A DNA stretch of 25,299 nucleotides from a virus: positions 1-25,299 of the IMG/VR virus record IMGVR_UViG_3300037485_002095; one strand, 5' to 3'. Positions 6,663-19,389 of the stretch are shown here, in pieces (position 1 is the stretch's first letter; every line of letters begins with the position of its first letter). The notes below the pieces were generated by a model. It was given only the letters and a program-made list of their open reading frames with translations, made no database searches and was not told where the DNA came from. Both the position numbers and the translations under genes were made by a program.

Positions 6663-7202
6663 ATGGCAAAACATAATCATGAAGGAAAAACTTGGTACGT
6701 TTACGAACTAATCGATGTTATGGGAACCGTAACTTATGTTGGATGTTCATATCGACCTCATTATAGATTTAAACAGCATACCCTTTGTAAAAAGGGTCGT
6801 GGAGTTGGCTACTTTCACGGTAGGCTTGATCTTACCTTAAATATCGTACAGGGTTACTCAACTCGTAAGGAGGCTCTCCGTGCTGAGGGAGCTCTTAAAC
6901 TTGAATACGGTATGGCTTGGACCGAAAGGGATCAGTTAAGGGCCAATGGTGCAAAGGCTAGAGATTCAGGTAGCTTAGCCGAGATTTCACGTCAAAATTG
7001 GAAACTTAATTGGAGAGAAATGACAGAGACCATGGTAAAGATTGGAGTAAAGCACAGGGAGTCAGGTCATATTCAACAAATTGGTGCGCAGTCAATGGCT
7101 CGTGAATTTCAATGTGAGCACTGCGGAGTGGTGGGTAAAGGTGCAGTATTCTTTAGATGGCATGGTGCCAAGTGTAAAAAAAATCCAGTAGCCAATGCCT
7201 AG
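6663..7202 (+). CDS. GIY-YIG homing-type endonuclease
   Basis: A 179-aa protein. The GIY-YIG core occupies residues about 8-90: WYVYELIDVMGTVTYVGCS (the two tyrosine-bearing strands), then the catalytic-arginine helix PHYRFKQHT, and the glutamate helix EALRAEGALKLEYGM. A linker with NUMOD-like repeats (AKARDSGSLAEISRQNW and a second similar segment) leads to a C-terminal finger CEHCGVVGKGAVFFRWHGAKC. Family knowledge: such free-standing enzymes cut DNA of related phages and spread with the flanking sequence; catalysis uses the Tyr, Arg and Glu with one metal. The canonical GIY is YVY here. It overlaps the next gene by 8 bases. The leader TAAATACCTAAATTAAA resembles the AT-rich motif seen before the portal gene. 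Confidence 0.85.
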   Translation: MAKHNHEGKTWYVYELIDVMGTVTYVGCSYRPHYRFKQHTLCKKGRGVGYFHGRLDLTLNIVQGYSTRKEALRAEGALKLEYGMAWTERDQLRANGAKARDSGSLAEISRQNWKLNWREMTETMVKIGVKHRESGHIQQIGAQSMAREFQCEHCGVVGKGAVFFRWHGAKCKKNPVANA

Positions 7203-10035: not shown

Positions 10036-10521
10036 ATGCCAACACCACCAGTAGCAACAACCTATGGAGTCCTATGTAAAGTACTGCAGGACCTGTGCCT
10101 AAGTAACATGGCGATTAAGACAGTCCGTATTGGACCAGTAAGTTCAATCGAGATGCCCTATGCGGATGATGCCCAAACCCAAAACTCCTATAAGTATCCA
10201 GCGGTCCATTTTGTGCCAATGGCAGCAGACATGAACGGTCGCTCTACGGTATTTGAATTTAGCATGATCGTAATGGACCTTGCAAAAGATAACCTTGGAC
10301 TTGATACCACAGTACATTCAGAAACCTTAGAGATCACTAGAGATCTTATGTCAAAGTTTATCCTTACCGATTGGACCGAGTTTAGATATAATTTAGAGTT
10401 ACCAGCAACCGCAACTCCTTTTATTGAGAACTTTCAAAACTCAGTAGCCGGTTGGACTACAAGATTTCAGGTAGAGGCTATAACCCCACTAAATCTTTGC
10501 GACGCTCCATTTATACCATAA
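10036..10521 (+). CDS. Putative tail terminator/completion protein
   Basis: A 161-aa alpha/beta protein. Seen: YKYPAVHFVPMAADMNGRSTVFEFSMIVMDLAKDN, a strand-rich centre followed by a helix ETLEITRDLMSKFI and a final set of strands. The Y-P-hydrophobic...(F/Y)xFxMxVMD pattern matches a protein I know to sit just before HK97-gp10-like genes in Bacteroidota phages. From fold prediction by eye and position, it may cap the tail tube and join it to the head. This is inference; no catalytic motif is present. Its stop shares one base with the start of the next gene (TAATG). Confidence 0.45.
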   Translation: MPTPPVATTYGVLCKVLQDLCLSNMAIKTVRIGPVSSIEMPYADDAQTQNSYKYPAVHFVPMAADMNGRSTVFEFSMIVMDLAKDNLGLDTTVHSETLEITRDLMSKFILTDWTEFRYNLELPATATPFIENFQNSVAGWTTRFQVEAITPLNLCDAPFIP

Positions 10522-10964
10522 TGCCAACGCTACAAGAAAATATAAGCAGAGGAATCTACGATGCACTAGATGCAATGGGAGTAGAGATAGTTAATATACT
10601 AAAGGCCCAAGCACCTAGAGATACAGGTAAGCTCCAAGGCTCAATTCGTCATCGAGTTGTGGTCAAGGGCGGTGAGTGGGCCCTAAGCTTTTACTACATC
10701 TACTATGGAGTCTATGTTGACTTGGGAACCTACGATAATGCGGATACCGCCTCCTATGGCCTTTCAGCATTTGAGCTACCTCAATGGAATCCCAATCCAG
10801 GTAGAGGAGGTTTTGGAATAAGACCCAGATATTGGACTTCCCTATCAGAGGATGCGGTCGAACTGCAGGAGTTTTTAGCAAAAAAAGTCGAGGGTATTTA
10901 CGAGGAGAGTCTCTCTAACCTGGTAGAGACCATTCAAACACGAACACAACGTAACACAGCATGA
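10521..10964 (+). CDS. HK97 gp10-like tail completion protein
   Basis: A 147-aa protein. Start chosen: the ATG at 10521, which overlaps the previous stop as TAATG; an in-frame ATG at 10452 would extend it into the previous gene. Seen: GVEIVNILKAQAPRDTGKLQGSIRHRVVV, the family signature (helix, then A-P-x-D-T-G-x-L-x-x-S-I), followed by strands, YYGVYVDLGT and a Gly/Pro-rich segment RGGFGIRPRYW before a C-terminal helix. HK97-gp10-like proteins assemble at the head-tail joint and complete the tail. The next gene overlaps by 4 bases (ATGA). Confidence 0.75.
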   Translation: MPTLQENISRGIYDALDAMGVEIVNILKAQAPRDTGKLQGSIRHRVVVKGGEWALSFYYIYYGVYVDLGTYDNADTASYGLSAFELPQWNPNPGRGGFGIRPRYWTSLSEDAVELQEFLAKKVEGIYEESLSNLVETIQTRTQRNTA

Positions 10965-11659
10965 TAAAATTTAAAACAGGGAGCGGCCAATGGTCAATAG
11001 ACACTCCTACTATCGAGGAGTACTATCAGATTCAGGAGTTAATAATTCTTTCGGATCAACCCAATACTCAGGTTGAACTTATTTCGATCTTAAGCGGAGC
11101 TCCAGTATCCGAGATCAGGGCAATGGAAGAGTCAGAATTTACGAAACTTTGGAATAAGGCTGCGCTTGGACCACTAAGTTCCCTAACCCAAACCAAGTTC
11201 GAGACCAGAATCACAGTTGACGGGGAGGAGTATGGATTCATTAACCTCGCAAGGCTCACAATCGGTGAGTTAGCTGACATGGATACCCTAAAGAATAATC
11301 CACAAATCGATCGTCAATTACACAAGATGATGGCGATCCTATACAGACCGATAACCGAAGACGGTATTGAGCCCCATTCGGCTGACGGTTTCTCAGAAAG
11401 AGCCGAACTTTTCCTGAGGAGGATGCCAATCTCCAATGTAGTTGCAGCAATCGACTTTTTTTTTCATATTACCAAAGTCTCCTTAAACAATACGATGGAC
11501 TCTTTGGTTCCTCTGATGATGGAGATGATCGAGGAGCTGACGGAGACTCAGATGAAAGAGCTGACACTAAAATTGCAAGAGGATGGAGTAGACTTATCTT
11601 CTTTCTTGCCGACGACGACCTCCTTAAAACAGATCAGTGCTCAAGACTTGGAGTCATAA
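10961..11659 (+). CDS. Tail assembly chaperone, short (gpG-like) product
   Basis: A 232-aa helical protein, ending at the TAA at 11657-11659. Position between tail completion genes and the large tail proteins, and its acidic helical character, fit the tail assembly chaperones that coat the tape measure. Seen: an N-terminal beta-like segment (MIKFKTGSGQWSIDTPTIEEYYQ), helices through LTIGELADMDTLKNNPQ and DRQLHKMMAILYRPI, and IDFFF encoded over a run of nine T. After the T run the zero-frame continues for 64 residues of acidic helix. The same mRNA has a second open frame one base back that continues past this stop. The chaperone assignment is inference; the overlapping frames are seen. Confidence 0.65.
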   Translation: MIKFKTGSGQWSIDTPTIEEYYQIQELIILSDQPNTQVELISILSGAPVSEIRAMEESEFTKLWNKAALGPLSSLTQTKFETRITVDGEEYGFINLARLTIGELADMDTLKNNPQIDRQLHKMMAILYRPITEDGIEPHSADGFSERAELFLRRMPISNVVAAIDFFFHITKVSLNNTMDSLVPLMMEMIEELTETQMKELTLKLQEDGVDLSSFLPTTTSLKQISAQDLES

Positions 11660-11751
11660 AGGTATTTAACTTCTTAGCCTACAAAAAGGATCAAGCCAAG
11701 AGGCAAAGATTAGAATTAGAAAAGATAAAAAATTCATATAAAACAAAATGA
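10961..11751 (+). CDS. Tail assembly chaperone, long -1 frameshift (gpGT-like) product
   Basis: Joining 10961-11464 to the -1 frame from 11464 gives about 263 aa, ending at the TGA at 11749-11751, which overlaps the ATG of the next gene. The -1 frame is open from 11386 to 11748 and contains no ATG, GTG or TTG after the T run, so it cannot start by itself. Its 95-residue product has a Ser/Asp-rich linker and then a folded-looking segment, GWSRLIFFLADDDLLKTDQ and GVIKVFNFLAYKKDQAK, that resembles the second half of tail chaperone fusions in Bacteroidota phages. Without the shift, 11660-11747 would be an unexplained gap in a tightly packed operon. The exact slip point is inferred. Confidence 0.7.
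11456..11464 (+). other. Nine-T slippery site for -1 frameshift
   Basis: GAC followed by TTTTTTTTT and CAT: three zero-frame TTT codons. T TTT TTT fits the X XXY YYZ rule for tandem -1 slippage, and nine identical bases are also enough to allow RNA polymerase slippage. It is the only long homopolymer in the window where the two chaperone frames overlap. Confidence 0.65.
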
Positions 11752-13265
11752 TAACTACCGTATACTACAAACCAAGTTACCTACAAGGAGCCTACAATCC
11801 AATTGTCTGGTCGGTGCTTAGCGATAAGACCAATGAGGTTGACTTTAAATACGTATTTGATCTCTATATCGATGGAGTATTTGAGGTTCGTTTTAAACAA
11901 CGCGCAAATCCTAGCGGTGCAGGTATGATCGATGTTGGTACTGCCGTACAGGCATTCCTTGTTTCAGGTCCTCCAAACTCCTCATGGACTCAAGGTGAAA
12001 CCGTAATTAACCCAACCATTGGTCAAGCCTACTTAAATAATGGAACCTTAAGTTGCCATGTCCATCTTCAAGTTGGCGAAGAATATTCAACCGCTGGAGT
12101 CTCTGACATCTATAATGGTGTTACCAATGTAGTTGGAGAACCTGCATACCTACTCTATTCTGATGTGATCTCAACCACACCAAATATTCCAGTTCATGCA
12201 TGGCCAAGTTCAGTAGAATACCAAAAGCAACAGTGGGCAATGTCAAATGCAACAGAATACTCAGGAGCCTATGGAGTCAATCCGGTTGATGGAGTCTATT
12301 ACGATTGGGCTCAAGCCTATTTTGTAGATTCAACAACCGCTCATGCACTAAATCATGCACCAAACTCGCAAGACCTCTATGCATTCGATAAGATGACCCT
12401 AAGTTACATCAACTGGACTCCACTCTCCTCTGACTTAAATCGTCGTACAATTTACGGGTTTCGTTATCGCGTTAAGAACTCTGCTGGTACCACGCTATAT
12501 ACGCTTGATCTACCGGTTATCATTGCCAATGGTTCCGGTCCAAGAACAGCATGCTCTACTAGTATCACCCTGGCTCAACTTAGTCCACAATACGATCTTC
12601 TACATGTCATTGCTGGACCTGACGATGTTGCTAAGCTCTTGGCTTATCACCAAACGGTCGACTACGCTCCACAACCTGGAGACACTATAGAGATTCAAGG
12701 TCATACGCCAGGAAACACATGGCCCAGCTCTTGCGCATTTGGAGACCCAGTAACAGATAAGGTTACGATCACGGTCAAGGAGTACTGTGCAAATTCGCTA
12801 TACCAACGAGTTCGTCTCTCTTGGCTAAACGACCTAGGTGGTCGAGACTACCTAAATTTTACCCAATTTCTAGAAAAAGAGATAAGCACCACAAACGATA
12901 CCTATTCTCAAGAGCAGGTTAACTGGTCAGACACAACGCCGGTCCCAATTGGAGTTACGGATCCTGCTGGTTACTTAACTCTACAGGGTGGTAATAAAGT
13001 TTATAATAAGATGGCCAATACAAGTTGGTCAATTCAAACTGACTGGTTAAGTCAAGCTCAAGTAGATCTACTCGAAGGTTTACAAAAGAGTCCTCAAGTC
13101 TTTGCATACATTCATGTTGACGGTCGCTCTTGGTCGGACTACGCACCATTTCCAGTAACGGTCAAACAGACCTCATATAGAGTTAAGAATGTTAGACAAA
13201 ACAAACTCACTCAAGGAGAATTCCAAATAGACCTCGCACTTCCTCAAAAATTACAAAATACCTAA
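11748..13265 (+). CDS. Tail/baseplate-associated structural protein, beta-rich
   Basis: A 505-aa protein. Seen: an N-terminal beta domain (VYYKPSYLQGAYNPIVWSVLS, then YVFDLYIDGVFEVRFKQR and AGMIDVGTAVQAFL), a Trp/Tyr-rich middle with loops such as YYDWAQAYFVDS, and a C-terminal beta domain ending SYRVKNVRQNKLTQGEF. There are few charged helices and no enzyme motif. I recognise the arrangement from Bacteroidota phages, where such a gene lies between the tail chaperone and the large tail/baseplate gene, but no function is proven; a distal tail or baseplate role is inferred. The start overlaps the frameshift stop and the next gene begins 3 bases after its stop. Confidence 0.5.
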   Translation: MITTVYYKPSYLQGAYNPIVWSVLSDKTNEVDFKYVFDLYIDGVFEVRFKQRANPSGAGMIDVGTAVQAFLVSGPPNSSWTQGETVINPTIGQAYLNNGTLSCHVHLQVGEEYSTAGVSDIYNGVTNVVGEPAYLLYSDVISTTPNIPVHAWPSSVEYQKQQWAMSNATEYSGAYGVNPVDGVYYDWAQAYFVDSTTAHALNHAPNSQDLYAFDKMTLSYINWTPLSSDLNRRTIYGFRYRVKNSAGTTLYTLDLPVIIANGSGPRTACSTSITLAQLSPQYDLLHVIAGPDDVAKLLAYHQTVDYAPQPGDTIEIQGHTPGNTWPSSCAFGDPVTDKVTITVKEYCANSLYQRVRLSWLNDLGGRDYLNFTQFLEKEISTTNDTYSQEQVNWSDTTPVPIGVTDPAGYLTLQGGNKVYNKMANTSWSIQTDWLSQAQVDLLEGLQKSPQVFAYIHVDGRSWSDYAPFPVTVKQTSYRVKNVRQNKLTQGEFQIDLALPQKLQNT

Positions 13266-17127: not shown

Positions 17128-19389
17128 ATGGCCAAAGATGTAGAAATTAAATTTAGGGTCAAGACCGAGGGTGGCGAAGAGATTGAAAAAGTCGCCAAGT
17201 CGCTTGATGACCTTGCCGAAGCCCAAAAACAGACCCAGCAGGCGCTTGGTAAAGTTGACGTAAAGTCAGAAGAATACAAGAAACTATCTGGAGAATTAAA
17301 GACGATTGATAAAGCCATGGGTGCTGCCAAAACAAGCACAATGTCTTTAGGCGAGAAGCTTGGATCAGTAGGTGGACCAATTGGTGGAGTCATTCAAGGT
17401 TTCCAAGGAATGGGTAAAGCGGCTACGGCCTTTATTGCTAATCCAATTGGAGCAGTTATTGCTGCATTAGGAGTTATCTTTGCTGCGGTTACCAAAGCAA
17501 TCAAGAACTCAGAGGAGGCAATGGACGCAGTTACCAAGATTACTGCAATCTTTGGAGGTATTGTAAGACCCGTTTTTGAATTCCTAGAAACCGTAGCAGT
17601 CGCTGCACTTGATGCAGTTGCCTCTGGGCTTGAAGCCGTTGCGAGTCTTTTTGGAGATGCAGGTAAAGCTGCTGGAGACTATGCGGATGCACTAGACAAC
17701 GCAGAAGATTCTGAAAAGGACCTTGCTGTTACTAGAGCTCAAACCAATAAGCAATTAGCTGAATCTCGAGAAATTCTTTCAGACACAAATGCAACTTATG
17801 AACAACGAGTTGCAGCCTTAAAAAAGGTACAAGCAGTTGAAGGTGCACAAAGTGCGCAAGAGGTTGCTAACCGTAAGGAGTTACTTCGTCTTGCTAATGA
17901 AAATATTAAAATAAACGGTAGATCAGAAGAGGCCGTCCAAAAGTTAAGAGACGCTCAAATTGCTCTAGCTAATGTTGAACAAGATGCTGCCGCAAAGCAA
18001 CGTCAATTCAATAAACAACAAAAAGCACTAGATTCTGAAAAGGAAGCTGCGGCTAAGGAGGCCGCAGCAAAGGCAAAAGCGGCTGCAGATAAAGCAGCGG
18101 CCGATGCAAAGACCAGAAATGATGCTGCCTTAGCATCACTTAAGGAAGGCCTTAAAAAGGCGAAAGACGAAAAGGATGCAGCATATTTACTCAGTATAAA
18201 AGATGATGCAGAACGTGCACGAGAAGCTCTCAGAATTCAACAAGAAAACCAAGATGCAGATATCCAGGCCAAGATCAAAGCCTATACTGATAAAAAGAAG
18301 TTAACCTCAACTGAGGAAAAGGCTTTACAAGCGCTAAGGGATTCTGCGGCTGCACAAGATCTACGTCAAGCGGCTGAGACCATTAAATTAAAGGAGGATC
18401 AAGACAAAGCCGCTGCTGACAAGAAGAAAGCAGACGAGGCCAAAGCATTCGCCGATAAGAACGCAGCGCTTGATGAACAATACAAGCAAGAGACCCTAAA
18501 ATTACTTCAACAGGGTTTAACTGCTGAACAGCTAAGAGCCTCTCAAGATCAACTTGAGTTAGCTGCTATTCAAAGGAAAATCGATGCAGCAAAAGCTGCT
18601 GGCCAGTCAAGTATAGATCTTGAGATTCAACTTGCAACCAAAAAGAAGGAAATACTCGATGCCGACGTAAAGGCAACTGAGGACGCTGCAAAAAAGAAAG
18701 CAGAGATCCAAATGCAGCAATTCAACGGTATCATGACCGCTGCAAGCTCAGTTGTAAACGCAGTTGCTGCAGTTCAAGAGGCTCAACAGGCAAGGGAATT
18801 AAAGAGCGCTGGTGATAACCTACAAAAACAGGAGGAGATTAAAAAGAAGTACTTTGAAAAGGGTAAGAAAACTCAAATCGCAAATGCAATTATCGGCACC
18901 ATTCAGGGTGCGGTACAGGCATTCACCTCATTGGCATCAATTCCAGTAGTTGGTCCAGCCCTTGGAGCGGTTGCTGCGGCTGCCGCACTTGTTGCAGGTT
19001 ACGCAAACGTTGCCAAGATTAAGGCTACCGAATACGAAGGCGCAGGAGATGCCGGCGGCGGAGGCGGAGGCGGAGGCGGAGCACCTACTCAAGCACCAAG
19101 CATGTTTGCAGGCGGCGGTATTGTAACTGGACCGGGTACAGGAGTTTCTGACTCTATTCCAGCCCGACTCTCTAATGGAGAATCGGTAATCAATGCTCGC
19201 AGCACCTCAATGTACAGTGGACTCCTATCGCTAATCAATGAAGCCGGCGGAGGTAAATCTTTTGCGGATGGTGGAGTAGCTGGCCAAACACCTCCTCAAA
19301 CACCAATAATTAAAACCTATGTAGTTGCATCTGAGGTAAGCTCTCAACAAGAAGCTGATTTTAGAATTCAACAAGTAGCAAGACTATAA
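17128..19389 (+). CDS. Tape measure protein
   Basis: A 753-aa protein. Seen: an N-terminal helical coiled coil (EIEKVAKSLDDLAEAQKQTQQALG), a hydrophobic stretch at about 100-131 (FIANPIGAVIAALGVIFAAVTKAI), a long Ala/Lys/Glu/Gln-rich coiled coil at about 180-560, a second hydrophobic segment near 590-635 (IPVVGPALGAVAAAAALVAGY), a run of glycines and a C-terminal GGGIVTGPGTGVSDSIPARL followed by NGESVINARST, a block frequent at tape measure C-termini. Family knowledge: it sets tail length and is threaded through the tube; at about 1.5 Å per residue this gives a tail near 110 nm. No lysozyme or peptidase domain was recognised. The neighbouring chaperone pair upstream supports the assignment. 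Confidence 0.88.
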   Translation: MAKDVEIKFRVKTEGGEEIEKVAKSLDDLAEAQKQTQQALGKVDVKSEEYKKLSGELKTIDKAMGAAKTSTMSLGEKLGSVGGPIGGVIQGFQGMGKAATAFIANPIGAVIAALGVIFAAVTKAIKNSEEAMDAVTKITAIFGGIVRPVFEFLETVAVAALDAVASGLEAVASLFGDAGKAAGDYADALDNAEDSEKDLAVTRAQTNKQLAESREILSDTNATYEQRVAALKKVQAVEGAQSAQEVANRKELLRLANENIKINGRSEEAVQKLRDAQIALANVEQDAAAKQRQFNKQQKALDSEKEAAAKEAAAKAKAAADKAAADAKTRNDAALASLKEGLKKAKDEKDAAYLLSIKDDAERAREALRIQQENQDADIQAKIKAYTDKKKLTSTEEKALQALRDSAAAQDLRQAAETIKLKEDQDKAAADKKKADEAKAFADKNAALDEQYKQETLKLLQQGLTAEQLRASQDQLELAAIQRKIDAAKAAGQSSIDLEIQLATKKKEILDADVKATEDAAKKKAEIQMQQFNGIMTAASSVVNAVAAVQEAQQARELKSAGDNLQKQEEIKKKYFEKGKKTQIANAIIGTIQGAVQAFTSLASIPVVGPALGAVAAAAALVAGYANVAKIKATEYEGAGDAGGGGGGGGGAPTQAPSMFAGGGIVTGPGTGVSDSIPARLSNGESVINARSTSMYSGLLSLINEAGGGKSFADGGVAGQTPPQTPIIKTYVVASEVSSQQEADFRIQQVARL

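Follow-up and report, generated by a model that had tools for sequence, protein, structure and literature searches.

Which machine changes the reading frame at a run of nine T's in a viral tail gene, the ribosome or RNA polymerase, is the question raised by the locus described here. The window, meaning the whole stretch of DNA analysed, is the virus record IMGVR_UViG_3300037485_002095 with 25,299 bases. It carries a siphophage structural block that includes portal-like, terminase, HK97-gp10-like and tape measure genes. The window appears to represent a virus of Bacteroidota-type bacteria, in which two versions of a tail-building helper protein appear to be made via the T run. We lean towards the view that RNA polymerase slippage, and not ribosomal frameshifting, sets the product ratio of the tail chaperone in a large group of Bacteroidota-type siphophages.

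The locus and its genomic setting

The 0-frame gene, named G here (10961 to 11659, plus strand), encodes 232 amino acids and ends with a TAA at 11657 to 11659. The G domain comprises about residues 1 to 168 of the product and is followed by the 0-frame tail. The locus lies among the tail genes, with the HK97-gp10-like gene (10452 to 10964) just upstream and the tape measure gene (17128 to 19389) downstream, separated from it by two large genes. The T9 run (11456 to 11464, plus strand) is read in frame 0 as GAC TTT TTT TTT CAT. It fits a slippery heptamer, as an earlier note on this DNA had claimed, with T TTT TTT, the portion needed for a ribosomal -1 slip, in frame at 11458 to 11464 (plus strand).

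The same note had described a -1 frame open from 11386 to the TGA at 11749 to 11751, and these coordinates are correct. A TGA at 11383 to 11385 (plus strand) closes this frame upstream, so it can be reached only via a shift after that point. The claimed lack of ATG, GTG or TTG in the -1 frame past the run was borne out as well. Beyond the slip, the -1 frame encodes the T domain (11464 to 11751, plus strand), with 95 amino acids running from SYYQ to KTK before the TGA. The fusion GT, consisting of the G domain and the T domain, has a length of 263 amino acids, and its predicted junction peptide in the window reads ...AAIDFFFSYYQSLLK. The 0-frame tail of G (11465 to 11659, plus strand) overlaps the T coding sequence, and both frames are constrained in the window's group. 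Between the 0-frame stop and the next gene lie the expected 88 nt (11660 to 11747). The next gene (11748 to 13265, plus strand) starts with an ATG at 11748 that overlaps the -1-frame stop as ATGA. The +1 frame ends shortly past the run with a TAA (11484 to 11486, plus strand), where translation of transcripts one U short would stop. In most relatives, a +1-frame stop also follows right after the run; it was considered as a designed feature and rejected, as it is a byproduct of coding in the other two frames (TTTAGG). Runs of T8 or longer are not rare in the window (5 found, 6.3 expected for its composition), and the significance of T9 therefore comes from its position and conservation.

Further features of the window were noted in passing. 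Both contig ends (3 to 2162 and 24281 to 25297) contain open collagen-like ORFs of GSSGTSG repeats, which may both belong to a single tail-fibre-like gene region that was interrupted by a repeat-limited or circularly permuted assembly. The product of the ORF at 6663 to 7202 starts with a GIY-YIG-like motif (WYVYELIDVMGTVTYVGCSYRPHYRFKQH), judged by eye only, and is possibly a homing endonuclease. In one relative (L003:1474-3665), the stretch from the terminase to the neck genes contains three ORFs that are absent from the window; they are found on both strands, and two resemble glycosyltransferases by eye.

Homologous loci

The main table comprises 205 homologous loci, some of which are overlapping fetches of one contig. 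They represent 133 distinct run contexts and form 85, 49 and 19 clusters at 90%, 70% and 50% amino acid identity of the G domain, respectively. Beyond these loci, at least several hundred further relatives were confirmed by search. A single-sequence search for G relatives in viral contigs found none, nor did a first scan of genome contigs for relatives. Relatives were reached via the terminase and then by iterated alignments. The search patterns were amino acid patterns containing at most FF with degenerate codons, and a T9 run was not required.

Named members include the Nonlabens phages P12024S and P12024L. Prophage-like members occur in Flagellimonas onchidii and Galbibacter pacificus, and T9 is also present in two more genomes of the same bacterial family (L210, L211). 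Four loci (L120, L125, L126, L127) come from MAG contigs assigned to Epsilonproteobacteria, Euryarchaeota and Pseudooceanicola; these are probably mis-binned phage contigs.

Two coding frames joined at the T run

A T-domain profile matched the -1 frame in 204 of the 205 loci and frames 0 and +1 in none; at the single exception, L115, the -1 frame is cut by the contig end. In the T alignment, a single Trp is invariant and a region of the form LAxxD...LAYxKD is conserved, and conservation of the -1 frame extends right up to the T run. Substitutions in nine pairs of related loci, counted at 0-frame codon positions 1, 2 and 3, amount to 243, 110 and 574 before the run and to 86, 186 and 132 after it. 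Such a switch of the wobble position at the run is what a change of the coding frame from 0 to -1 would produce. Conserved coding sequence is present in both frames, which are joined at the run. The -1 frameshift at T9 put forward in the earlier note thus has its counterpart throughout the family: the -1 domain is joined to the upstream gene in all relatives, and constraint changes frame at the run. From these alignments, recoding at this locus is close to certain.

Constraint acts on both frames of the overlap in the window's group, with 0-frame position 1 being the slowest overall. The 0-frame tail of the window is open for 63 codons, compared with 18.7 expected from the -1-frame protein (P 0.003), and tails are longer than expected (P under 0.05) in 17 of 49 representatives. 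The constraint on the tail together with its excess length indicates that the tail of G is probably functional in its own right in the window's group. Short tails without a length excess are found in the L026, L051, L125 and Nonlabens groups. At three loci (L005:1289-2095, L017:3001-3834 and L021:2310-3140), the 0-frame outlasts the -1 frame by 4 to 10 nt, so that the whole T domain is overlapped and dual coding extends over about 300 nt. At L207:1608-1639, the 0-frame stop follows 7 codons past a T10, the tails of its relatives being about 54 codons long.

Identity of the encoded products

The pair is likely a tail assembly chaperone, an assignment derived from its position, its G/GT layout, and weak family and fold matches. 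The layout corresponds to the lambda-type G/GT: two overlapping frames in -1 relation are fused at the slip site, and the second has no independent start. Pfam Phage_TAC_7 was matched below the cut-off by 4 of 25 members (best E 0.0037). AlphaFold gave a good model of G (pLDDT 84); against the PDB, this model scores best with the HK97 tail assembly chaperone 2ob9, at a non-significant E of 1.2 and probability of 0.18, which is a hint at most. The model of the T domain is poor (pLDDT 64), and a fold search with it gave no meaningful match. The name tail chaperone given in the earlier note is thus carried by G/GT architecture and synteny, as a likely identity rather than a demonstrated one.

Distant homologues of G occur in a single frame of about 280 to 300 codons in the Flavobacterium phages 23T and 2A, in the Cellulophaga phage Ingeline, and in two bacterial genomes (L212 and L213), the latter two having no T9. 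The G domain is related to that of L212 and L213 (probability 96, E 2e-9). Comparison of the T domain with their C-terminus yielded an hhalign probability of 0.3, i.e. no significant kinship. Sequence comparison nevertheless suggests that G and T may be fused in one frame elsewhere, as in the L212/L213 type. In Flavobacterium phage 6H (L215:10086-10927, minus strand), the distant G homologue is in two pieces owing to a disrupted frame, and there is no long T run at the break. The homologue is one open frame in 23T, 2A and FPSV, which are near-identical to 6H, and the disruption is interpreted as a sequencing indel or a recent mutation.

Conservation of the run and the probable level of slippage

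The run at the site is T9 in 173 and T10 in 32 of the 205 loci, with no other length and no interruption at any of them. When the coding strand of 20 representative loci was scanned for T8 or longer, all 20 had such a run at the site, and there was one other instance in 134 kb. Among 85 representatives (419 kb, coding strand), T9 or longer is found at the site in all 85 and in 16 instances elsewhere. Frame relations at the T10 loci are the same as at the T9 loci, which indicates that T10 has arisen by a substitution beside the run and not by an inserted T. Relatives lacking the -1 frame and a sequencing error merging both frames had been named as grounds for doubt. No family member lacks the -1 frame, and T9 or T10 stands in 133 distinct contexts. 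Since these contexts come from many metagenomes as well as from phage isolates and the genomes of bacterial isolates, sequencing error is excluded as the source. A check for T9 and both frames in relatives, also proposed beforehand, found T9 or T10 at 205 of 205 loci and the T profile in the -1 frame at 204.

The frame switch itself is probably transcriptional slippage by RNA polymerase on T9 or T10, judging from the comparison of the loci. The criterion used for this mechanism is an A/T homopolymer of roughly eight or more without interruption; one is present at all 205 loci, and run length is conserved independently of codon register. The E. coli RNA polymerase slips at seven or more T's, with a preference for T over A (PMC6260861). 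Across the loci, the run falls in three different codon registers, and the maximum-likelihood tree of the G domain shows 14 register changes, yet the run is never below nine. The flanking residues vary with the register (e.g. DFFFH, SFFL, LFFYH), which makes the nucleotide run, and not the peptide, the constant. With independent flanks, 7.7 runs shorter than nine would be expected among 49 clusters, or 13.2 among 85, and 0 were observed. None of 20,000 permutations was free of short runs, although such P values are nominal because the loci share ancestry, and the tree count of register changes is the better guide.

A purely ribosomal -1 frameshift at T TTT TTT, i.e. a tandem tRNA-Phe slip as in lambda G/GT, is considered unlikely. 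The ribosome requires no more than the heptamer T TTT TTT. This heptamer lies in frame in every run (205 of 205), as it must in any T9, and is itself a good ribosomal slip site. U_UU.U_UU.U is efficient in E. coli (PMC4066793), and the characterised tail-chaperone shifts in the open-access literature are all ribosomal (PMC5009743). The T's beyond the heptamer are placed two before it, one on each side, two after it, or three in total, their sum never falling below two. Under the ribosomal explanation, they would stem from amino acid constraint and AT-rich codon usage. The run does sit in a conserved hydrophobic helix, and amino acid constraint therefore contributes. However, this leaves unexplained why the total never drops below nine despite changes of register and flanking residues. 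It also does not account for the absence of TTTTTTC, found at the site in 0 of 205 loci though TTC makes up 28% of the upstream Phe codons. A ribosomal site should tolerate T TTT TTC, as this is an efficient slip motif in E. coli (PMC4066793). In the window, a hairpin (z -2.1) lies 6 nt downstream of the run, a suitable distance matching the spacing of a ribosomal stimulator. It was rejected as a family-wide stimulator, as it is not present even in the nearest relative, L007, and no conserved downstream RNA structure was found in 49 representatives (mean folding z 0.02). The lack of a conserved stimulator is likewise left unexplained by a ribosomal origin, but some proven -1 ribosomal frameshifts have none, and its absence does not exclude that mechanism. 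Taken together, the retained run length, the missing TTTTTTC and the lack of conserved structure favour transcriptional slippage. Of the two levels named in the earlier note, translational or transcriptional, the comparative evidence thus favours the second, short of proof.

Still less probable is a dual origin, in which RNA polymerase slipping on T9 and ribosomes slipping on U UUU UUU both feed GT. One sequence suits both machines, and their interchangeability is known for dnaX (PMC3711429), but nothing observed here requires two mechanisms. Phase variation at the DNA level, with replication slippage altering the genomic T run and switching GT on or off, is highly improbable: tracts like T9 do serve this purpose (PMC3711429), but G and T share one frame at the site in 0 of 205 loci, and the T10 loci with their unchanged frame relations derive from neighbouring substitutions, on which grounds this explanation was ruled out. 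That T is a separate, unfused protein with its own start codon or reinitiation can practically be dismissed. In its favour, an ATG overlapping the 0-frame stop exists in the -1 frame of P12024S (annotated as the separate gene gp39). Against it, the window has no ATG, GTG or TTG past the run, such codons are missing from the first 30 codons at 193 of 205 loci, and conservation of the -1 frame reaches up to the run itself.

Proposed mechanism

Under transcriptional slippage, the region from 10961 to 11751 would act as a G/GT-type tail-chaperone gene with a programmed switch of frame. The majority of transcripts would carry U9 and yield G (232 amino acids). RNA polymerase would slip on the weak rU:dA hybrid, giving a fraction of transcripts with one additional U (or two fewer), whose normal translation would produce the fusion GT (263 amino acids). 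Transcripts lacking one U would reach a stop within a few codons. Nine to ten T's would be retained because the length sets the slippage rate and hence the ratio of G to GT. By analogy with lambda, G may bind the tape measure protein, while T may recruit tail tube subunits. We infer the occurrence of slippage, its level in transcription and the role in tail assembly. Full GT synthesis from TTTTTTTTC in a reporter would favour the ribosome.

If slippage takes place in transcription, selection would hold the ratio of the two products and not the machine producing it. The family would also provide a natural series, T9 versus T10 in three registers, in which to test the tuning of a protein ratio by homopolymer length.

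Comparison with known systems

The frameshift in tail chaperones is a standard example of conserved ribosomal recoding. The -1 shift of the lambda type is the classic case (PMC5009743). As in lambda gpG/gpGT, an abundant upstream-frame product would be accompanied by a rarer -1-frame fusion (PMC5009743), the amounts being predicted here, and the gene belongs to a siphophage tail block with a shift in the -1 direction. In contrast to the GGGAAAG-type heptamers of lambda, the site is a T9 to T10 homopolymer of fixed length, with a run length conserved beyond ribosomal need and a long overlap with a constrained 0-frame tail. The proteins cannot be aligned with lambda G and T using the tools applied. 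The HK97 chaperone (2ob9) is the best PDB fold match of the G model, without significance (E 1.2, probability 0.18), and an HK97-like chaperone cluster is contained in GeneTack (PMC3711429).

Single-frame annotation was expected to lose the long product, and this has happened: in P12024S, the two halves are annotated as gp38 and gp39. Proteins related to the G part and to the T part are likewise filed in two separate PHROG families of unknown function, 32199 and 38404, respectively, whose descriptions contain no link to a frameshift.

Transcriptional slippage on homopolymers is known from mxiE and spa13 of Shigella, dnaX of Thermus and many IS elements (PMC5009743, PMC3711429, PMC4066793). These systems resemble the present locus in that a run of about nine A or T gives access to a second frame and in that length matters more than codon phase. 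They differ in serving type III secretion, replication and transposition, none being a phage tail chaperone, and slippage at the present locus is predicted. The open-access literature yielded no account of a tail chaperone that uses transcriptional slippage. What would be new here is the joining of two otherwise known devices, a G/GT-type pair and transcriptional slippage. If this holds true, the same kind of protein pair would be controlled at a different level of gene expression.
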